The notes beneath the pieces are model-generated. The model was not told the DNA's origin, ran no database searches, and saw only the letters and a program-made list of their open reading frames with translations. Of a stretch of 64,000 bases of DNA, positions 10,561-54,561 are shown piece by piece; the stretch's first letter is position 1; each line of letters opens with the position of its first letter. Position numbers and translations under genes: made by a program. This stretch comes from Spirochaetia bacterium. GTDB taxonomy: Bacteria; Spirochaetota; Leptospiria; Leptospirales; Leptonemataceae. The stretch lies in contig VFLI01000051.1 in assembly GCA_009885105.1 (NCBI GenBank), positions 1 to 64,000 of the forward strand. Reading direction: 5' to 3'.

Positions 10561-11604
10561 TCAGTTACTGCTGAAGTGTATTTTTTCCAGAACAAAGCGC
10601 ATGATGTTCACGGCGCTTTCTTTTTCACCCGGAGGGAATGTGATATTCAAATAAAATCCCTGAAAGGCGCGGACAGAATAAAAATCGATGCTGGAAACTT
10701 CTCCCAGGAATCCCGATTCTCGCACCGCGCAGAACAGCCGGCCGCGCTCTGTCCGACCGCCGGAGACGGAGCCGGTCTGCGAACAAAATTCATTTTCATA
10801 CGGCGGTATGCTTCTCTGGAAATCCAGTGACTGCTGCCGCTGAGGACTGAGAGATCGGCGGAGGTCCCAGATCGACATGAGCGCCTGAGTGTCGGGCAGT
10901 TCCCAGGCTCTCCGGCGAAGATCCGATCCTATAGTAATATTAATATTTCCGGAACCCGCATAGACCACACTGTGCATGGACTCCCGCTCCCGTGCGGCCA
11001 TGGAAGGCATATACCGGAAACTGCCTGGAAGCGTGACTCTCCAGCCGAACCTGTCGCTGGCGATGACCGTCAGTTCGTCTATGTCGTTGAAGAAAATGTA
11101 CGGATCGCTATCGCGCTCATAATCCTCAAAGAGAAGCAGATCCGTTTTCATGCGATTGATGCGGACGGTGGAGTCAGCGGAGGCGCGCCGGACGGCCGCG
11201 GGTGCTTCCGGAAAATTTCTGTCCATAGAGACAATTGACCTGTAAAGAAACAGCGCTTCCGATTTCAGGCCCGCGCGAAGAAGAGCGTCGGCTTCCGCCA
11301 GATGAAGCGTGGCGTCGCTCGTGCGTGGAACCACCGGACGCCAGTTGTCTTCCAGGGGGTTGAAACTCACCCTGCCCCGTCTGTCGATTTCAAACGTGCG
11401 GCCGCCGGCGTCCTGGATCTGCGCATGCGCCTCCATTTTTTCCAGCACGGAGCTGATCCGAAAAAACAATCCGCGTGCTTTGAGCGATTCCTGCTGACTC
11501 CAGTTCTCACGCAGCAGGGGATCGTTACGATTTTCCCCGCCCGAATAAACGGCGCCGAACGCGCAAAATACTGCAAGTATTGCAGCCGATCGAAATAATA
11601 TCAT
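10561..11604 (-). CDS. Exported hypothetical protein with TPR-like segment
   Basis: Start 11604 (MILFRSAAILAVFCAFG) gives a signal peptide; an in-frame start at 11700 would overlap the divergent PlsC gene and lacks one. Residues about 105-150 (LHLAEADALLRAGLKSEALFLYRSIVSM) look like one or two TPR helices. The C-terminal half is beta-rich (GWRVTLPGSFRYM, GFYLNITFPPGEKESAV), like small lipid- or ligand-binding domains that follow a transport or sensor gene. I do not recognise the family. Only 34 bases separate it from the divergent gene at 11639. Confidence 0.7.
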   Translation of the reverse strand: MILFRSAAILAVFCAFGAVYSGGENRNDPLLRENWSQQESLKARGLFFRISSVLEKMEAHAQIQDAGGRTFEIDRRGRVSFNPLEDNWRPVVPRTSDATLHLAEADALLRAGLKSEALFLYRSIVSMDRNFPEAPAAVRRASADSTVRINRMKTDLLLFEDYERDSDPYIFFNDIDELTVIASDRFGWRVTLPGSFRYMPSMAARERESMHSVVYAGSGNINITIGSDLRRRAWELPDTQALMSIWDLRRSLSPQRQQSLDFQRSIPPYENEFCSQTGSVSGGRTERGRLFCAVRESGFLGEVSSIDFYSVRAFQGFYLNITFPPGEKESAVNIMRFVLEKIHFSSN

Positions 11605-11638
11605 TGACTTTCGAAACGAATACCGGCATATTCCGGTC

Positions 11639-12367
11639 ATGGCCCTGCAGTCAGAAAAACAAACCTTCCACACACTAAAGAATATCGTAAAACCGTTCAT
11701 GGACTTGATGGTAAATATTCAGCCTCAGGGCCTGGAAAATGTGCCCAAAGAAGGGGCAGCGATCCTTGTCGGCAACCATCGTTCCGACCTCGACCCTTTT
11801 GTCGTGGCGTACGCCGTGCCCCGGTTCATTTCCTGGATTGCCGCGGAATACACAACCCGAATCCCTATTTTCAAGAATTTAATCCGGGACACAGGAGTGA
11901 TCCCCATGGATGTTTCCGGCAATGTCAGCGTCGGTTCGATCAAACGGCTGATGCATGTTCTCAAGAGCGGAGAGATTCTTGGAATTTTTCCGGAGGGACA
12001 CGACTATATGGTCCAGAACGATTTCTCGTCCCGCATGGTGAATTTTCACCAGGGATTCGCTCTTTTTGCCCTGCGCGCCCGCTGTCCCATCATTCCCTTC
12101 GCCATTATTCCGGAGGATGAGCAGATCGAGACGATTCCCTTCCCATCCGCGGTCCGTTCCCTGTTCGGCCTGCCGGAGGAAGTGTGCAACATACCGCATC
12201 GAGTCGTTTACAACACCGTGAGAATAATTTTCGGCAGTCCGCTGTCAATGGAGCCGTATCTTCAGATGCCGGACAAAGAAGCCTCGCCGATCATTGTGAA
12301 AAAAACGCGAGAACTGATTGAGGAGATACAATTTGGTGAAGGGATGTATGTGAGGGAATCCTCATGA
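11639..12367 (+). CDS. 1-acylglycerol-3-phosphate acyltransferase family protein (PlsC-like)
   Basis: The catalytic HX4D is NHRSDLD (His47, Asp52), and FPEGH near residue 118 is the acyl-acceptor motif. The 242-residue length suits PlsC-type enzymes that make phosphatidic acid at the inner membrane. No long hydrophobic anchor is present. Its stop overlaps the start of the next gene (12364-12367), the broken membrane protein, so the two once formed an operon. Confidence 0.9.
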   Translation: MALQSEKQTFHTLKNIVKPFMDLMVNIQPQGLENVPKEGAAILVGNHRSDLDPFVVAYAVPRFISWIAAEYTTRIPIFKNLIRDTGVIPMDVSGNVSVGSIKRLMHVLKSGEILGIFPEGHDYMVQNDFSSRMVNFHQGFALFALRARCPIIPFAIIPEDEQIETIPFPSAVRSLFGLPEEVCNIPHRVVYNTVRIIFGSPLSMEPYLQMPDKEASPIIVKKTRELIEEIQFGEGMYVRESS

Positions 12368-12744
12368 CTCAAATTTCAGTCTGGCGAAACTACTGCGCAA
12401 TCGCGCTTGTTTCTGCCGCCGTTATTTTTCTCCAGATCGCTGTTACGCGAGTCCTCTCAGTCGTCGTCTGGTATCATTGGGCATTTTTCTCCATCTCTCT
12501 CGCCATGCTTGGCATCGGCGCTCCAGGCGTTTGGCTCACTTTCGTCAATCATCGTGAATGCTGGCTGGGTCCATCTCTTCTCGCATCCGCCGTTCTGGTG
12601 CCAGGCGCGATCATTGCGATTGTGAATGCCACCCATTTTTTTAGAGAATATTCCATCCTCTTCTGCCTGGTCTGCCTTTTGCCTGCCGCGCTGGCGAACT
12701 GCGTCGTGAGCGATGTAATCTGCGACCATCTTTTAGGAAGATAG
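12364..12744 (+). pseudogene. N-terminal fragment of a membrane spermidine synthase-like protein
   Basis: The 126 residues have four hydrophobic helices and the family opening FLQIAVTRVLSVVVWYHWAF with SLAMLGIGAPG. Whole members run 700-900 residues: helices, then a methyltransferase-like domain, then more helices. Here the frame stops at 12744, right beside a fabF fragment. The matching C-terminal part is found at 19683-20117 in the same orientation. The middle, about 500 residues, is missing and replaced by foreign genes. The last dozen residues (after LPAALANCV) no longer resemble the family. Confidence 0.72.
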
Positions 12745-12914
12745 TCCTCCGGATTAAAATTCGTTTCTCCCGCGATGCGACATGGGAAAGTAGATGCATC
12801 GAACCTGGTGATGGGTCTGAGTCCAGTTTTTCCATCCAGGAGATTTTGCCAAAAATACGTAATCCCATTGCCGATGGGCGAAATAACACCGATTCCTGTA
12901 ATTACAACACGCAC
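12729..12914 (-). pseudogene. Truncated 5' end of a beta-ketoacyl-ACP synthase II gene (fabF-like)
   Basis: A GTG at 12914 opens MRVVITGIGVISPIGNGI, then LLDGKTGLRPITRFDAS and FPCRIAGETNFNPEDYLPKR. This is the first 60-odd residues of a FabF-type condensing enzyme. Homology ends at about 12729, where the reading frame runs antisense into the broken membrane gene. The catalytic Cys-His-His residues lie in the lost part. The fragment marks one end of the inserted DNA. Confidence 0.8.
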
Positions 12915-13048
12915 TTAAAAAATCCCTGCAATAAAATGTAATTTATCAAATCAAAATGATATCCTATGTGTCAAGGAATAAAACTGAAAAGAATTTCAAT
13001 ATTTTCTGGACAGACGATGTGCCTCCGCAGTCTCCATGCTATGGACCT

Positions 13049-14458
13049 ATGAAATCTCATTTCAGGATCTTATTCGCTCTTCTGCTTTGGCTCATCTTCT
13101 TTTGTTTGACATTTCTTAAAGATTACAATATAGATCAAATAAACTATTGCGGGGATCAGTCAGAGCTGATTGAGACCGCTCTGCGCATAACACAGGGAGT
13201 GGCAATTTATCGCGGGCCTCCCAGTCAGGGCGGAAGTCATAACATTGGACCTTTATATTACTATTACCTGGCTTTGTTGCTCGTCTTTTCAGGCAAGAGC
13301 ATCGTTATTATGAATCTTTTAAATTGTCTCGTTCAAAGCTGTGGTTTCCTTTTCTTGTGCCTTTTGCTTCTACGCCTCACCGGTTCGTATTTTCTATCAT
13401 TTGCCTGTGCGATATCCATGTATGCTCACAGCCAGCCATATTACTATATGAAAATCGTATGGGGACCGGCCGTGGTCATGCCTGCTTTCATTGCTTCTCT
13501 TTTCCTTCTTCAATTGATCCAGGATGGGCGGCATGGTTTTATACCCCTTCTCGCATTCCTCCAGGCATTTCAGATACAGGCACATTATGCGATGATCTTT
13601 CCATGTGCCGGAATCCTTTTCGCTCTGATACTCCATCTTGTGCGCCTGCACCGGGAGACACTTCCTTTATTAAAGAAGACTATCATTATTTCAATGCTTG
13701 CATTCTCCCTGCCATTCATTTTCACTCTATACGATCTGGTCCTCAACTACGGAGAAAACGCGAAACGTTTGGTTCAGTTTCATTTCGCACACGGGGGTTC
13801 AGTGCGGTGGAGCGAAATAATTTTGTTTCTGGCCGAATTTGCTATCGAAAGTTCCCTGACGCCATGGTTCAGTACGATTCTTGCATCGATGATATTGCTG
13901 GCCAGTTTTGCGTTGGTTAAGAAGAAACTAAATTTCAGATTCGAATTTTTCCTGCCATTGAGTTTTTCAATTCTAAGTCTTTTCTTCATCCGAGATCGTA
14001 TTGATAATCATTATCTTGCATATTTCGCTTTCTTTCCACCGATTTTGTTTGCAATATTAGGGAATGATATTCAGGAACTATCGAACCAGAAAGCGCGGCC
14101 GTTTATCAGAATCTCTATAGCCATTCTGGTCTTGAGCGCCGCGTTTTCTGATTTTCGTTTCAATTTTGAGAGTCATGCCGAAACCTCCTGGAATTCCTGT
14201 CCTTATGGAGAGATGCGAAAGTTGTCGCTTATCTTAAAAAAGAATGCAGGTGCGAATCCAGTTTACATGGAAATCATCGGCTCCAACGCTCCGCCTGTCA
14301 TGGCATCCTTCGCCAGGTTGTTCCACGCACTGAGCATCGAATATTCCCCGACTGCGGCTAAATACAAGATTTTCACGCCACCCGATGGATTACCGGATAA
14401 TAAATATGAGACTCTTTATGTTAGTACAAAATTTAGATTGCAGCGAATTAGACAATGA
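13049..14458 (+). CDS. Polytopic GT-C-type glycosyltransferase-like membrane protein
   Basis: The ATG at 13049 (MKSHFRILFALLLW) begins the first helix; an earlier in-frame ATG at 12956 would add a soluble tail without support. The protein has about ten transmembrane helices. After helix 1 comes an extracytoplasmic loop with YCGDQSELIETALRI and GGSHNIGPLYYYYL. The acidic residues there resemble the catalytic loop of lipid-linked-sugar transferases of the PMT/ArnT type. The same loop pattern (GDQ, then GPxxYW) occurs in the gene at 16161. Its sequence is clearly AT-richer than the flanking chromosome. The sugar and acceptor are unknown. Confidence 0.68.
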   Translation: MKSHFRILFALLLWLIFFCLTFLKDYNIDQINYCGDQSELIETALRITQGVAIYRGPPSQGGSHNIGPLYYYYLALLLVFSGKSIVIMNLLNCLVQSCGFLFLCLLLLRLTGSYFLSFACAISMYAHSQPYYYMKIVWGPAVVMPAFIASLFLLQLIQDGRHGFIPLLAFLQAFQIQAHYAMIFPCAGILFALILHLVRLHRETLPLLKKTIIISMLAFSLPFIFTLYDLVLNYGENAKRLVQFHFAHGGSVRWSEIILFLAEFAIESSLTPWFSTILASMILLASFALVKKKLNFRFEFFLPLSFSILSLFFIRDRIDNHYLAYFAFFPPILFAILGNDIQELSNQKARPFIRISIAILVLSAAFSDFRFNFESHAETSWNSCPYGEMRKLSLILKKNAGANPVYMEIIGSNAPPVMASFARLFHALSIEYSPTAAKYKIFTPPDGLPDNKYETLYVSTKFRLQRIRQ

Positions 14459-14476
14459 GATCGACCCCTTTAGTTT

Positions 14477-16129
14477 TTGCAAACGCACGAGATAATTAAT
14501 TTGAGCAAATTCTTACAATCAGAAATATCCGCTCGCCTCTCAGCTTATTGCCTGAGCGGCACGGCTCTATTCATATTTATTTATAGTGTCGCGTCGCAAA
14601 ACATTCCTTACATCCTCTTTAATGCGGATGCCCTGCACCCAGCTCTTCTATACAAGGATATATTCATCGATGAATTCCCATTGAAAGGTTGGAGTCTCAC
14701 CCCGGCCCCTTTTTTCTTTCCTGATATTGTATTGTACTTTCCTGTTCGATTTCTTGCGGGAAGCACTATCGCTGGTGTTTTCGCTTTCACAGTAGTGCAG
14801 TGGTTGGCCATGCTGGAGTCGGTCTTTTTTTTGATAAAGAATGTGCTGCCAGATCGCCATGCAATCAGCGGCATTTATTTTATGGGTATACTTTTTTCCA
14901 TAATAGTATTCATTGCCTGTCTTGGCTGGGCTGGCGAGGTTTTTCTTCCCCACTTTGTACCCGATTTCCATGCAGGTATGTGCATTGCGACAATCCTGGA
15001 TTTTGCCTTCGCTGTCCGATATATCAAGACAGGTAAAATCACATCTATTCTGGCAGTTACGGTAATCGGTATTCTTACAACAGCTTCGGATCAGCTATTC
15101 TGGATTTCTTTTATTTTCCCAGCAATAGTGACATTCGCAATTCTCTTTCGTAAAAATAATAGGGCACGAAATAGCATCCTGATCATTATGATATTATTTT
15201 CCGGATTCGTGGGCAATCGCTTGCTTCTTTTTATACAGGATTTGAACATTTTTCTAATCCCTTCTCTCGACATAACGGAACGCTTTCGCGATTCGCTTAT
15301 ACATGAAAATACGGTACATGAAATTGCCATCGTTCTGTTCGAGGGGATCTGGCTGCAGTTCTCGGTATTGGACGTCGGCGGTGGAATTGCCTTTTGCTTG
15401 ATTTTGATCTTATTGCTTTACAAATCATTGTCTTCCTTTCGAAAACCGGGATTTGATAGTGTTGACTGCTTTTTTATTTTCGCACTGATCGCAACAGTCT
15501 CAGGTTTTTTTGCACTTTCGGTAACGCGGGCTTTGTTTGGCATATTCGCGGCTCGCTATGCTATTGTGTCCTATACGCTTCCCATTATCTGTGCAGCAAT
15601 TTTGGCAGGCCAATTGAAATCATGGAAATCATGGCAAACTCAAAGAAATCTTGCAATCGGATTTACCGCCTTATTTATTATATTTCTTTTTTTCAGTATC
15701 AGCAGGGTGTCACCCACCCTTCCATTCCCCGAGTATCGGCATCCGCTGGCCGCTTGCATGGATGAACACCAGTCGAAATATAACTTGAAATTCGGCCTCG
15801 CCGATTACTGGAATGCAAAACCTTTGAATGTTCTGTCACAAAAAGGAATCCGGGCCAATCAAGTTTATGAAAATTTAGGGCCGCTCTACTGGATGATGAA
15901 CTATTACTGGTATTTTGGAAAAGAAAAGAGTCCGGATTATGATTTCATTATAACGGAAAGGCTGGATCGAGATCTAATTTTGAAAAACTTTGGTAAACCA
16001 GCAGCGATCTTCTTCTGCGGGCAAAGCGAGGTTTTTGTTTTCAATCGACCAACTGATCGCGCTTTTCGAGAGCATCTCCATGCATCAAGAGAACAGGTTC
16101 GAGTCTGGCAGATTTTGACGGGAAGGTAA
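14477..16129 (+). CDS. Large polytopic membrane protein of the glycan island
   Basis: The product has about 550 residues and 11-12 hydrophobic helices. The first loop contains NADALHPALLYKDIFID and FPLKGWSLTPAPFFFPD. Acidic and aromatic residues in such a loop suggest a GT-C-like glycosyltransferase, but I cannot place it in a named family. No ATG lies near the start; TTG at 14477 or TTG at about 14501 are the choices. It follows the previous gene by 18 bases. It may use the same polyprenyl-linked sugars as its neighbours. Confidence 0.62.
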   Translation: MQTHEIINLSKFLQSEISARLSAYCLSGTALFIFIYSVASQNIPYILFNADALHPALLYKDIFIDEFPLKGWSLTPAPFFFPDIVLYFPVRFLAGSTIAGVFAFTVVQWLAMLESVFFLIKNVLPDRHAISGIYFMGILFSIIVFIACLGWAGEVFLPHFVPDFHAGMCIATILDFAFAVRYIKTGKITSILAVTVIGILTTASDQLFWISFIFPAIVTFAILFRKNNRARNSILIIMILFSGFVGNRLLLFIQDLNIFLIPSLDITERFRDSLIHENTVHEIAIVLFEGIWLQFSVLDVGGGIAFCLILILLLYKSLSSFRKPGFDSVDCFFIFALIATVSGFFALSVTRALFGIFAARYAIVSYTLPIICAAILAGQLKSWKSWQTQRNLAIGFTALFIIFLFFSISRVSPTLPFPEYRHPLAACMDEHQSKYNLKFGLADYWNAKPLNVLSQKGIRANQVYENLGPLYWMMNYYWYFGKEKSPDYDFIITERLDRDLILKNFGKPAAIFFCGQSEVFVFNRPTDRAFREHLHASREQVRVWQILTGR

Positions 16130-16160
16130 ACATTATTTGACGAAAGTGTAGTATCGTATA

Positions 16161-17522
16161 TTACCTGCTCCAGCGGACACTCCCGTCGTTAGCTATTGTC
16201 GCCACCTCACCATCCGGAGACGGTTTCACTCCGAGGCATTCCACAATAAACGCGGCATTGGTTTTGGGGCTGGCATCGGGCGCATCGACTCGCCGGAACT
16301 TCTTACCTGAATTGACAATCGTTTTGGCCCCTCTGACCAGGACACCGTATTCAGGCAGCCTGTCGGAGGGAGATTCACGGAATCTATCCGGCTGGCGATA
16401 GAGTATGAATATCAGCAAAATCCAAATGGGAATTTTAATACTGCCGCTCAATGCCTCGATCCCCAGACACATAAGAAATGAAAAGGGAGCCATCATGGTG
16501 ACGAGATGGTAGAGATCGGGGCGGATGGGATATACGGCACAGCCGGCGATGGCAACAGCGAGCGGGAGCCAGGAAAAAAAGAACCACTCCGGTTTTCGCG
16601 CGATCACAGCCAGAGAGAGAAGCCAGGGTATGACGACAAAACTTGAATGACGAACAATGAAATCCGCATTTTCAAAAAGCAAAAGCGCGTCGCCGCGAAC
16701 GATGTATCGATAGGCGGCCGTTGTGTGGAATTTGGCGGGTTCTTGCAGTATAGTTAAGATGCTTGATGTGGCGCCCGATGTCCGCGGCAGCCCTTCTTTG
16801 AACCAGTATACAAAATAAGGAATTTGCAGACATAGAATACAAACCATGGCAAGAAAGGTAAATTTAAATACTGCGCGGAAATTAGATTTTCTATATTCTC
16901 GAAATAAAAGAAATAGAAAAATTGAAATGGTTGAAAAGACCGCCGGGAAATGTGCCTGAAACGCTACCCAGGCGAAAATGAAAGGTAAGAATGGGCTTGT
17001 TTGCGGTTTCTTGAAATATCGAATTGAAGCAGCATAGGCAAAATTTACGAACGCTGTGCCCACACCAGGATTCCAGGATGTGTTGCCGGAGAACGATGCC
17101 TCGAAAGGCGAAGAAATAATAAATAAAATAGCCGCGCTTGAAAAAGGAAAAGACATAACCGAAAGCAAGGCTCGATACAGAAATCCGGCAGACAGTCCAT
17201 AAATAAAGGCGACTCCAATCCCACCCGCATGAGGCAGATAATCTGTGAAGGGACCGATGACCTCCCGCGATAACCATAAAATCCAGTACAGGATTGGCCC
17301 GAGCGAATAACCGCCATCGACACGCGGCGTCCCTCTGAGAGGAAGATCAGTGAAAGCCACCGAAATCTCCTTCCAGTAAAGAATTTGATCACCGAATAAC
17401 TGAAAATGCTCCGCAATACCATGGGCGCGAAAATAAAAAGCATAGAAAGCGATCAGCAATGGAAGGAAGTAACTCTGAATTGCCTCTTTTCCTCGACTCG
17501 ATGGCAGCAAAGAACGGCTCAT
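16161..17522 (-). CDS. Polytopic GT-C-type glycosyltransferase-like membrane protein
   Basis: This 453-residue protein with about ten helices shares the loop style of the 13049 gene: FGDQILYWKEISVAF and YSLGPILYWILWL. SGNTSWNPGVG follows. The soluble C-terminal tail (about residues 395-453) is extracytoplasmic or cytoplasmic and of unknown use. It converges with the gene at 14477, leaving 31 bases between the stops. The paralogy with 13049 suggests two transferases acting on one glycan. Confidence 0.66.
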   Translation of the reverse strand: MSRSLLPSSRGKEAIQSYFLPLLIAFYAFYFRAHGIAEHFQLFGDQILYWKEISVAFTDLPLRGTPRVDGGYSLGPILYWILWLSREVIGPFTDYLPHAGGIGVAFIYGLSAGFLYRALLSVMSFPFSSAAILFIISSPFEASFSGNTSWNPGVGTAFVNFAYAASIRYFKKPQTSPFLPFIFAWVAFQAHFPAVFSTISIFLFLLFREYRKSNFRAVFKFTFLAMVCILCLQIPYFVYWFKEGLPRTSGATSSILTILQEPAKFHTTAAYRYIVRGDALLLFENADFIVRHSSFVVIPWLLSLAVIARKPEWFFFSWLPLAVAIAGCAVYPIRPDLYHLVTMMAPFSFLMCLGIEALSGSIKIPIWILLIFILYRQPDRFRESPSDRLPEYGVLVRGAKTIVNSGKKFRRVDAPDASPKTNAAFIVECLGVKPSPDGEVATIANDGSVRWSR

Positions 17523-17589
17523 AGAAGATGAGCGACAATTTGTGCAGTCTATGTCAAGATATTTATAATAATTTTTTATACAATATTCT

Positions 17590-18873
17590 TTAATCTTCCT
17601 TCTTGTGATGATTTGCCCTCAAGAATTCATTCGAAAGCACCAGCATGTAGCAAGGGAAGAGCAGAAGAAGGTTTGCGATAAATATTGTTCCATAACCGCT
17701 GTAAATCTTCCAGTCTGAAAACTGATTGAAGAAGAATATACTCGTAAGAATGATTGAAACGGAGACCGCCAAAGCTGCCGTAAATTTTTTAATAGGATGG
17801 TTCTTGAAAATATTCAAACTGTGAACAAGAAGCGCCACCTGGCAGAATGGTAGGTATACAAAATAATGTGGCCATGAAGTCCGCACTAGAAACGCCAAAG
17901 TTAGGAATACAATAATTATTGATAAAGACAATCCGACTATCAATTTAAGATGTCGGAGCCGCCAGACAAGCCCAATATTCACCGCCGCGATACAATAACC
18001 CAGAATCCCGAGTTTCTCGAAACTGAATGAATAATACAACGACGGTGCACAGCGAACAATCAAACGCATGAATACGTGAGGAAAATATTGAGAGTTTATA
18101 TCAATCATATCCAATTTTCGCTTGATCCTCAAGAGAGCAATGGAGGCGATCTCGAACTCCTTCCAGTCCGTAAAACCGATTACGGTAATGGGAACAAGTG
18201 CATAAAAAACAACCACTCCTAAAAGAAATGATACCACCACGCGCCATTCGCGACGCAACACAAAGGGCACAATGAAGACGGCCGGGTAATATTTTATAGA
18301 TGTACCAAATGCCAGCAGAAAACCTGCCGCAACCGGAAACCCGGCTATTCGCAAATGGTAAACCCCCAAAATGCCAACAAAAAGAAACAGAGAGACCTGT
18401 CCCCAGGCAAAATTATGAAGAAGCGGCACCGACGTAATCATTAAAGAAAAAAAAAGGATGGCTGCATACGGTGATTTTTTTCCGAATTTGTTAAAAAACA
18501 TAAAGATTACAATCATGAACAATGTGAATTGAAAGATACCCCAGACCAACATATCAGTCTGTAATGACAGATATTTTAATGGAAGCAGCAGTACCGCGAA
18601 AAATGCTGGAAAAATAAAACCTCCCACCGGACGCTTTGTCTCAAGAAAGCTTTGAGCCATGCCCAAATAGTAATCCTTGAAATCCTGAAAAATGCTCGGA
18701 CATATGTCAATTGCCTTGACGAAATCAGTTGTAGTTTCCCAACGATTGAGATAGTAATTATATATTAGAGAAAAGATCAAAACACAGATTAAATATACGA
18801 TATAGGGACGGCGAATCTTTTCATCTGCATACGAGAGAAGTGACTTGGCTTTATTCAATATTTTCCCCACCAT
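17590..18873 (-). CDS. GT87 (DUF2029)-type glycosyltransferase
   Basis: Start 18873 (MVGKILNKAKSL) is next to the end of the upstream gene. About ten helices carry FAWGQVSLFLFVGILG and FGTSIKYYPAVFIVPFVLRR, the GQ and K-P signatures of polyprenyl-phosphate-mannose alpha-mannosyltransferases (GT87). It acts at the inner membrane with the active site outside the cytoplasm. It is transcribed with the small gene at 18875 and is probably part of the inserted island. GC is lower than in the flanks. Confidence 0.82.
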   Translation of the reverse strand: MVGKILNKAKSLLSYADEKIRRPYIVYLICVLIFSLIYNYYLNRWETTTDFVKAIDICPSIFQDFKDYYLGMAQSFLETKRPVGGFIFPAFFAVLLLPLKYLSLQTDMLVWGIFQFTLFMIVIFMFFNKFGKKSPYAAILFFSLMITSVPLLHNFAWGQVSLFLFVGILGVYHLRIAGFPVAAGFLLAFGTSIKYYPAVFIVPFVLRREWRVVVSFLLGVVVFYALVPITVIGFTDWKEFEIASIALLRIKRKLDMIDINSQYFPHVFMRLIVRCAPSLYYSFSFEKLGILGYCIAAVNIGLVWRLRHLKLIVGLSLSIIIVFLTLAFLVRTSWPHYFVYLPFCQVALLVHSLNIFKNHPIKKFTAALAVSVSIILTSIFFFNQFSDWKIYSGYGTIFIANLLLLFPCYMLVLSNEFLRANHHKKED

Positions 18874-18874
18874 C

Positions 18875-19507
18875 CTATTTCCCATACAGCGCCAGCACCT
18901 TCGCAATCTCGTCCAGCTCAATCTCCCGCAACCCCGCCGCTGTTTTCACAATAGCCTTACCATCTCTCACCGATTCAATATATCCCTCGATCTGAAACTC
19001 CCCGGTATCCTCTTCATTCTCTCTCTTCACTTCGCGAAAAAGTATCCTGTGATAGATCGCAACCGGCCCCCCCATCCCAGGATCGATCCTGCCGGCAAAA
19101 GATGGCACCGCAGCGCTTTCACCTATGCCCTCCACCTTTCGCCCCACCTCCTTTAGACGTTCTTTCTCCTTCTGGAGGATGCGATACTGCACAATCGCCG
19201 CAGTGTCTTCCGGCTTGAGAACGATGGCATTTGAAGGACATCCTTCTATCAATTTCGTGCGAACAATAAAACTGACAATAAACCCCAGCAACGACAGCCC
19301 GACATCGCCCGGATACGCAACTTCCCTGTACCGGATAGACGGATACTTTGTGAGTCGCTCGCCAGGCCATTGTTTCGGACGGTCGCGAAGACATGCCGGA
19401 GTTATTCGCAAAGCCCAGTCTTGCCTGGGGCGGGGAGGATACCTATCATAAGGTATTTTCCAATATTTAGAACCAACCGACTCGCCGTATAGAATAACGA
19501 CAAACAT
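18875..19507 (-). CDS. Hypothetical protein, possible shortened lipoprotein
   Basis: This 210-residue protein opens with MFVVILYGESVGSKYWKIP; there is no full signal peptide, although related-looking envelope proteins would carry one. A GAGGA site ten bases before the ATG supports this start. A hydrophobic stretch DVGLSLLGFIVSFIV (about 70-85) may be a membrane helix. The C-terminal half is charged, with REIELDEIAKVL. GC matches the chromosome rather than the AT-rich island. The function is not recognised. Confidence 0.6.
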   Translation of the reverse strand: MFVVILYGESVGSKYWKIPYDRYPPRPRQDWALRITPACLRDRPKQWPGERLTKYPSIRYREVAYPGDVGLSLLGFIVSFIVRTKLIEGCPSNAIVLKPEDTAAIVQYRILQKEKERLKEVGRKVEGIGESAAVPSFAGRIDPGMGGPVAIYHRILFREVKRENEEDTGEFQIEGYIESVRDGKAIVKTAAGLREIELDEIAKVLALYGK

Positions 19508-19682
19508 GCGTCAAAATTCCTCGTTGATATACAAATGTCAATGATTACCGTCGCACTATCCACCATTGAGCGGCATGTTATATCAGTCGACACACGTTTG
19601 CCATCCTTAACACCCATTTTTCATTTTTGCCCTGATCGCGTTACACAATTCTCATCCGTCATCCCCAGTCGACCGGAAGTAA

Positions 19683-20117
19683 AAAACAGAAAAAGAACTT
19701 ACAAGAATTGTCAATGCTACTGCCGCATATGAAATTTTGTTCCGTTGCCGTGAGCCGAAATCATCATTCCTTCTACCCGTCTATGTCTTCGCCGTTAACT
19801 GGGCAATTCCATTGGTATTCACTGCAACGCTTGGTCTGGATTGGATCGCGCGGCTCCTGATCACAATGGCGCTGCTGGTTCCTGCAGCGTTTCTGATGGG
19901 CTTCGCATTCCCTTCAGGCATGATTCGTTTTAACGGTCCCAATCGCCCATGGTTCTGGGCCCTCAACGGCGCGGCCGGTGTGCTGGCCAGCGTTCTATCA
20001 CTTTCTCTTTCAATGGAGTTTGGATTCTCGCATGTGGGCATCATGGGAGCGTGCGCTTACGCAGCCGCCTGGCTGCTGATACTCGGGCGCCGGGTTTCGG
20101 AAGAAACCAATAGATAG
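19683..20117 (+). pseudogene. C-terminal fragment of the membrane spermidine synthase-like protein
   Basis: An open frame from 19683 to TAG at 20115-20117 has no plausible start except a TTG at 19737. It has three to four helices, with FAFPSGMIRF and PWFWALNGAAGVLASVL then FGFSHVGIMG. These are the family's C-terminal signatures. It matches, in orientation and order, the N-terminal fragment at 12364. The two fragments and the lost centre once made one gene. Confidence 0.72.
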
Positions 20118-54080: not shown

Positions 54081-54561
54081 GTTGTTAATGTCCTACTTTC
54101 TGGAGCGAGTGCGGACCCTGGCGGAGAAGTCCGGCGCGTCTTCGCGACCGTCGGAGCCAGGAATCCCGCCGAGCGATTGCTGGAGCTTCAAACCGGTTGC
54201 TATTTAGAATCAGAAAAATGCATCAGTTGTTCAATGGGTATTTTCGTCCGATTCGGGGCCGTACGTGAATTCGTCCTTTGTCAATTGACAGATTTTCATG
54301 GATCTGCCTGAGAAATAAGTATTTGCGGTGCTGCTTGCGAATGACGGCACAATTGACGGCGACACTGTTCGGTTTTTTTTGAAAACGAGACGCAGGATTA
54401 CGAAACGATACGCTATCTTATTATTCAGGGAACCAGGAACATAACAATTCTTGATATGCTGCCGAAAATCGGACAGGACATTCTCGATCGACGCGCTGGA
54501 CGATCATACGGGAAGGATTCAAGGCAGCACTGTCGGTTTGAGAATTACCAATTCTTAAACC
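54081..54561. other. 480-base gap with no supported gene
   Basis: Beyond the IS91 remnant lie short frames only. A stretch at about 54391-54561 (ENETQDYETIRYLIIQGTRN, then ILDMLPKIGQDILDR) reads like protein but has no start and no known family. A TGTCAATTGACA palindrome lies at about 54279-54290. I see nothing else. Confidence 0.5.

Follow-up and report, generated by a model that had tools for sequence, protein, structure and literature searches.

The two ends of a gene for a polytopic membrane spermidine-synthase-like protein lie 7,073 bp apart in the 64-kb stretch (below, the window) that opens contig C7 of a draft MAG (3.6 Mb, 115 contigs), and the central ~540 codons with the synthase-like core are missing from the gene. 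We consider it probable that this synthase remnant is dead, illegitimate recombination by insertion plus deletion having put 7.07 kb of other DNA in place of the centre. That the arrangement is an ordinary genome rearrangement scar in one draft genome, with no new system indicated, is well supported. The features are collected in Table 1; the open reading frames, their strand, order and composition, and the four polytopic genes of the gap are as given in the original prediction.

Table 1. Features of the split synthase locus (window coordinates)
Feature	Position	Strand	Evidence
Upstream acyltransferase gene, intact	11639..12367	+	PF01553 6e-24; orthologues 48-68% identity in 16 relatives
N-terminal remnant, 110 aa, polytopic membrane spermidine-synthase-like	12364..12693	+	66% identity to aa 3-109 of L032 protein; profile N-terminus
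Left junction, 10 bp fitting synthase and fabF homologies	12684..12693		Synthase homology ends at 12693, opposite-strand fabF homology at 12684
fabF-type beta-ketoacyl synthase gene, first 77 codons, rest missing	12684..12914	-	TIGR03150 1.7e-17; 69-70% identity to full-length G015 and G003 genes
GT-C-fold glycosyltransferase-like polytopic protein, 500 aa	12956..14458	+	Model pLDDT 69, pTM 0.71; Foldseek to DPY19, ArnT, ALG12 at 5e-5 to 6e-5
Polytopic protein, 550 aa, GT-C-like by topology only	14477..16129	+	About 10 hydrophobic segments; no Pfam or NCBIfam match
Polytopic protein, 453 aa, GT-C-like by motif	16161..17522	-	GDQ and GP motifs common to 12956-14458
GT87 family glycosyltransferase	17590..18873	-	PF09594 7e-21, 75.5 bits vs cut-off 25; start inferred from overlap with 18875-19507
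Small lipoprotein gene, 3' part; signal peptide and lipobox lost with 5' part	18875..19339	-	ORF aa 57-207 align to aa 137-267 of L090 ORF
Dispersed-repeat copy	19353..19416	+	In frame with false N-terminus of ORF 18875-19507
Unassigned AT-rich DNA, about 260 bp, holding right junction	19508..19766		Synthase homology begins only at 19767; join bounded by in-frame stop at 19680
C-terminal remnant, 116 aa, same synthase gene	19767..20117	+	60% identity to aa 654-758 of L032 protein; profile C-terminus

The closest intact homologue found in a scan of genome contigs is a 768-aa polytopic protein of a Kiritimatiellae MAG (L032:6048-8351), the middle of which weakly matches the spermine/spermidine synthase domain (PF01564, E = 0.006, aa 291-382). 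As a tblastn query against the window it gave two matches only, aa 3-109 at 12373-12693 (66% identity, 2e-36) and aa 654-758 at 19767-20081 (60% identity, 6e-34). This is supported by an independent profile of six other family members from the window's phylum, with the L032 protein left out, to which the N-terminal piece aligns at positions 12-68 of 786 (7e-14) and the C-terminal piece at positions 685-779 (2e-17; profile-search E-values are given for Z = 1000); the same profile has no match in the four island proteins. The proposal that the N- and C-terminal signatures of one membrane protein lie 7 kb apart, on the same strand and in the same order, is thereby confirmed, and alignment to whole family members places the fragments at opposite termini of one family, not in different families. 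On these alignments, 12364-12693 and 19767-20117 are the two ends of one gene whose centre has been lost.

The open reading frame of the N-terminal piece runs to 12744, yet only 110 of its residues belong to the synthase, its last ~16 codons being antisense fabF, and the C-terminal piece begins near 19767 rather than 19737. The remnants contain no stops or frameshifts, and decay after the event is not visible. Nothing in the assembled genome corresponds to residues 110-653 of the L032 protein, the catalytic core among them, and a search of it with the intact protein gave just the two end pieces. It was originally proposed that the missing centre indicates replacement rather than simple insertion; this is upheld, as replacement or as insertion plus deletion. 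To judge from the absent core, the product cannot work, and the split gene would be a remnant and not a working family member.

The 10-bp overlap of the two homologies at the left junction may be a microhomology used in end joining, or could be a chance agreement between alanine-rich stretches. The remainder of the truncated fabF was not found in the assembled genome; an intact copy may exist in the roughly one fifth of the genome that the assembly lacks. The intact partner of this scrap, for which a search elsewhere had been suggested, was absent from the organism's own assembly; full-length homologues are present in the relatives G015 and G003. The piece was considered as a duplicate of the genome's own ketoacyl synthase on contig C10, and this was rejected: there is no DNA similarity and the protein identity is 46%. 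That paralogue lies in a fatty-acid-type operon, and besides it no other ketoacyl synthase was matched over the full domain. The operon (L010, G000:C10:40001-52000) is compact, fatty-acid or polyketide-like, and comprises acyltransferase, reductase, dehydratase-like, ketoacyl synthase and biotin-carboxylase-like genes, its ketoacyl synthase being the only one in the draft genome matched over the whole PF00109 domain. No transferase module was found beside fabF in G015, G003 or G018, and in the first two (L079 and L080) the full fabF-type homologue adjoins a ParA-like gene cluster, not a fatty-acid operon.

The gap is AT-richer than its surroundings, as predicted: the GC content of the island is 43.0-43.7% (43.7% for the gap) compared with 50.4% in the rest of the window, and it is the lowest 5.9-kb stretch of the whole window. 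Two transferase genes homologous to those of the island but located elsewhere in this genome have 49-53% GC. The island proteins have weak or no homologues in the 47 class relatives; a search for the same island in other genomes had been suggested. Foreign origin of the island is suggested because its composition differs and close homologues are absent. The reading frames of all four transferase-like genes are intact, and the genes form two convergent pairs. Their description as polytopic glycosyltransferase-like genes, accompanied by the 5' end of fabF, holds for position, and in class it is carried for one by Pfam (GT87), for one by the GT-C fold and for two by motif or topology only. The model of 12956-14458, of medium confidence and built from an alignment with five related sequences, has GT-C enzymes as its best PDB Foldseek matches (TM 0.40-0.54); the protein has no family match, and its D67-Q68, in the putative first outer loop, is invariant in the six aligned sequences. 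Protein 16161-17522 has no Pfam or NCBIfam match and its single-sequence structure model is too poor to use, and a PDB sequence search with two island proteins gave no match. Family and fold suggest that the four may act as lipid-linked sugar transferases. No integrase- or transposase-like gene, terminal or direct repeats or tRNA were found at the island ends; Rfam and tRNA scans of the 64-kb window found nothing, a PHROGs search gave nothing useful, and no paper on the polytopic spermidine-synthase-like family or on the locus was found.

Near the right junction, just a part of ORF 18875-19507 is real: aa 57-207 match small lipoproteins of relatives over their C-terminal part, and no lipoprotein N-terminus lies upstream in any frame. 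Its false N-terminus is partly supplied by an in-frame copy of a dispersed repeat directly at the truncation. The repeat is about 65-75 bp long, mostly intergenic, with the core GACGGTCGCGAAGACNNGCCGGA, and has about 8 copies in the assembled genome (window 19353-19416 and 54121-54155 on the minus strand; C112:44417, C88:40638, C88:46738, C85:26359, C1:15619 and C23:1003). The reversed control pattern of the core has zero occurrences in the same genome, and the exact core was not found at the searched pattern in the other 47 class genomes. Long hairpins can form in several of the copies; the C85 copy folds far better than its shuffles (z -4.9), whereas three others, the window copy included, do not. 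The repeat resembles a REP-like or MITE-like element. We regard it as very doubtful that it is a mobile or recombinogenic element that aided capture of the transferase module, with the spot after the acyltransferase a preferred capture site in the lineage.

A synthase family match is present in 40 of 393 genomes of the phylum, and among the 48 genomes of the class the window's own genome alone has one, the other 47 having no detectable homologue. The comparison with relatives for an intact gene, as originally suggested, is consequently uninformative. Because the synthase is absent from all class relatives while the upstream acyltransferase, the stop of which overlaps the synthase start, has orthologues (clear ones in most of the family), the gene was probably acquired by the window's lineage from outside. 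Among 13 genomes examined around their acyltransferase orthologues, 10 have the divergent upstream neighbour in common and two a purL-like gene; nothing else is shared, and no empty site was found. The divergent pair of a 379-aa protein and the acyltransferase (window 10561-12367; L092-L101 in relatives) is the arrangement kept in those 10 genomes, and the gene 3' of the acyltransferase varies from genus to genus.

We propose that the ancestral lineage would have carried a full membrane spermidine-synthase-like gene directly 3' of the conserved acyltransferase gene. One or more events of illegitimate recombination would then have deleted the ~540 codons of its centre, and 7.07 kb of other DNA would have come to lie in their place, comprising a fabF-type 5' scrap, the four membrane sugar-transferase-like genes in their two convergent pairs and the 5'-truncated lipoprotein gene. 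A microhomology of about 10 bp may have served to join the left end. As the gene is cut into two ends with its centre missing, replacement, or insertion plus deletion, is favoured. The three partial genes found at the edges speak for illegitimate recombination, perhaps stepwise, over a neat exchange. An inversion or transposition of the synthase centre within the genome was rejected, as the centre is absent from the assembled 3.6 Mb. The pieces are most improbable as functional small proteins of a genuinely split gene: both have open frames and predicted membrane segments, but the centre with the family's catalytic core is absent from the assembled genome, the N-terminal piece terminates in antisense fabF codons and no start signal was identified for the C-terminal piece. 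Homologous replacement of a surface-glycan locus, as first envisaged, would be in keeping with the gap's membrane transferase-like genes, four in number and with support as glycosyltransferases for at least two, and with the AT-rich island, since many glycan loci are AT-rich. However, by Pfam and NCBIfam the gap holds no sugar-nucleotide, flippase/transporter, polymerase or cytosolic transferase genes, and a glycan locus is not supported because the gap offers only four membrane transferase-like genes. Exchange through shared flanks was likewise rejected: the edges lie inside unrelated genes and share nothing beyond about 10 bp, at the left junction. We therefore judge this origin very unlikely.

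The evidence for the rearrangement comes from the assembly of a single draft MAG, and it has to be weighed whether the assembler, or strain mixing, falsely joined to the synthase locus a transferase segment that belongs elsewhere or to another organism. The genome is a draft in 115 contigs with 78% completeness, the synthase remnants are pristine up to the joins, the insert differs in composition, and the assembly contains neither the remainder of fabF nor the synthase centre, all of which would be consistent with such an artefact. It would nevertheless require two false joins in one gene, in register and on the same strand, plus loss of the centre; the contamination estimate is just 0.7%, and no long repeat lies at the joins to mislead the assembler. 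On balance an artefact is unlikely. Taken as a genuine rearrangement, the locus is a clean example of an apparently foreign gene overwritten by a second acquired module, with scraps of two further genes at the joins. Its importance lies mainly in the annotation of this lineage, in which neither end piece of the synthase, nor the false N-terminus of ORF 18875-19507, should be entered as a working protein.

Compared with polytopic membrane spermidine-synthase-like proteins (L032:6048-8351), the N- and C-terminal membrane parts agree in sequence and position; unlike the intact protein, with its distant PF01564 core between membrane segments, the window gene is without the central ~540 residues and is held in two frames 7 kb apart. 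The first 77 codons of the fabF piece match FabF (beta-ketoacyl-ACP synthase II; TIGR03150), whereas the active-site region and the remainder of a full FabF are lacking. Among the island proteins, 17590-18873 matches the Pfam GT87 family of GT-C glycosyltransferases and 12956-14458 resembles ArnT, DPY19 and ALG12 by fold; in contrast to the solved GT-C enzymes, sequence identity is about 10%, and there is no recognisable O-antigen or capsule locus. The locus, as read from the assembly of one draft genome, shows no essential difference from bacterial pseudogenes made by illegitimate insertion plus deletion, in which the ends are kept, unrelated DNA forms the centre, partial genes stand at the edges and, as here, at most a short shared sequence is found at the join.
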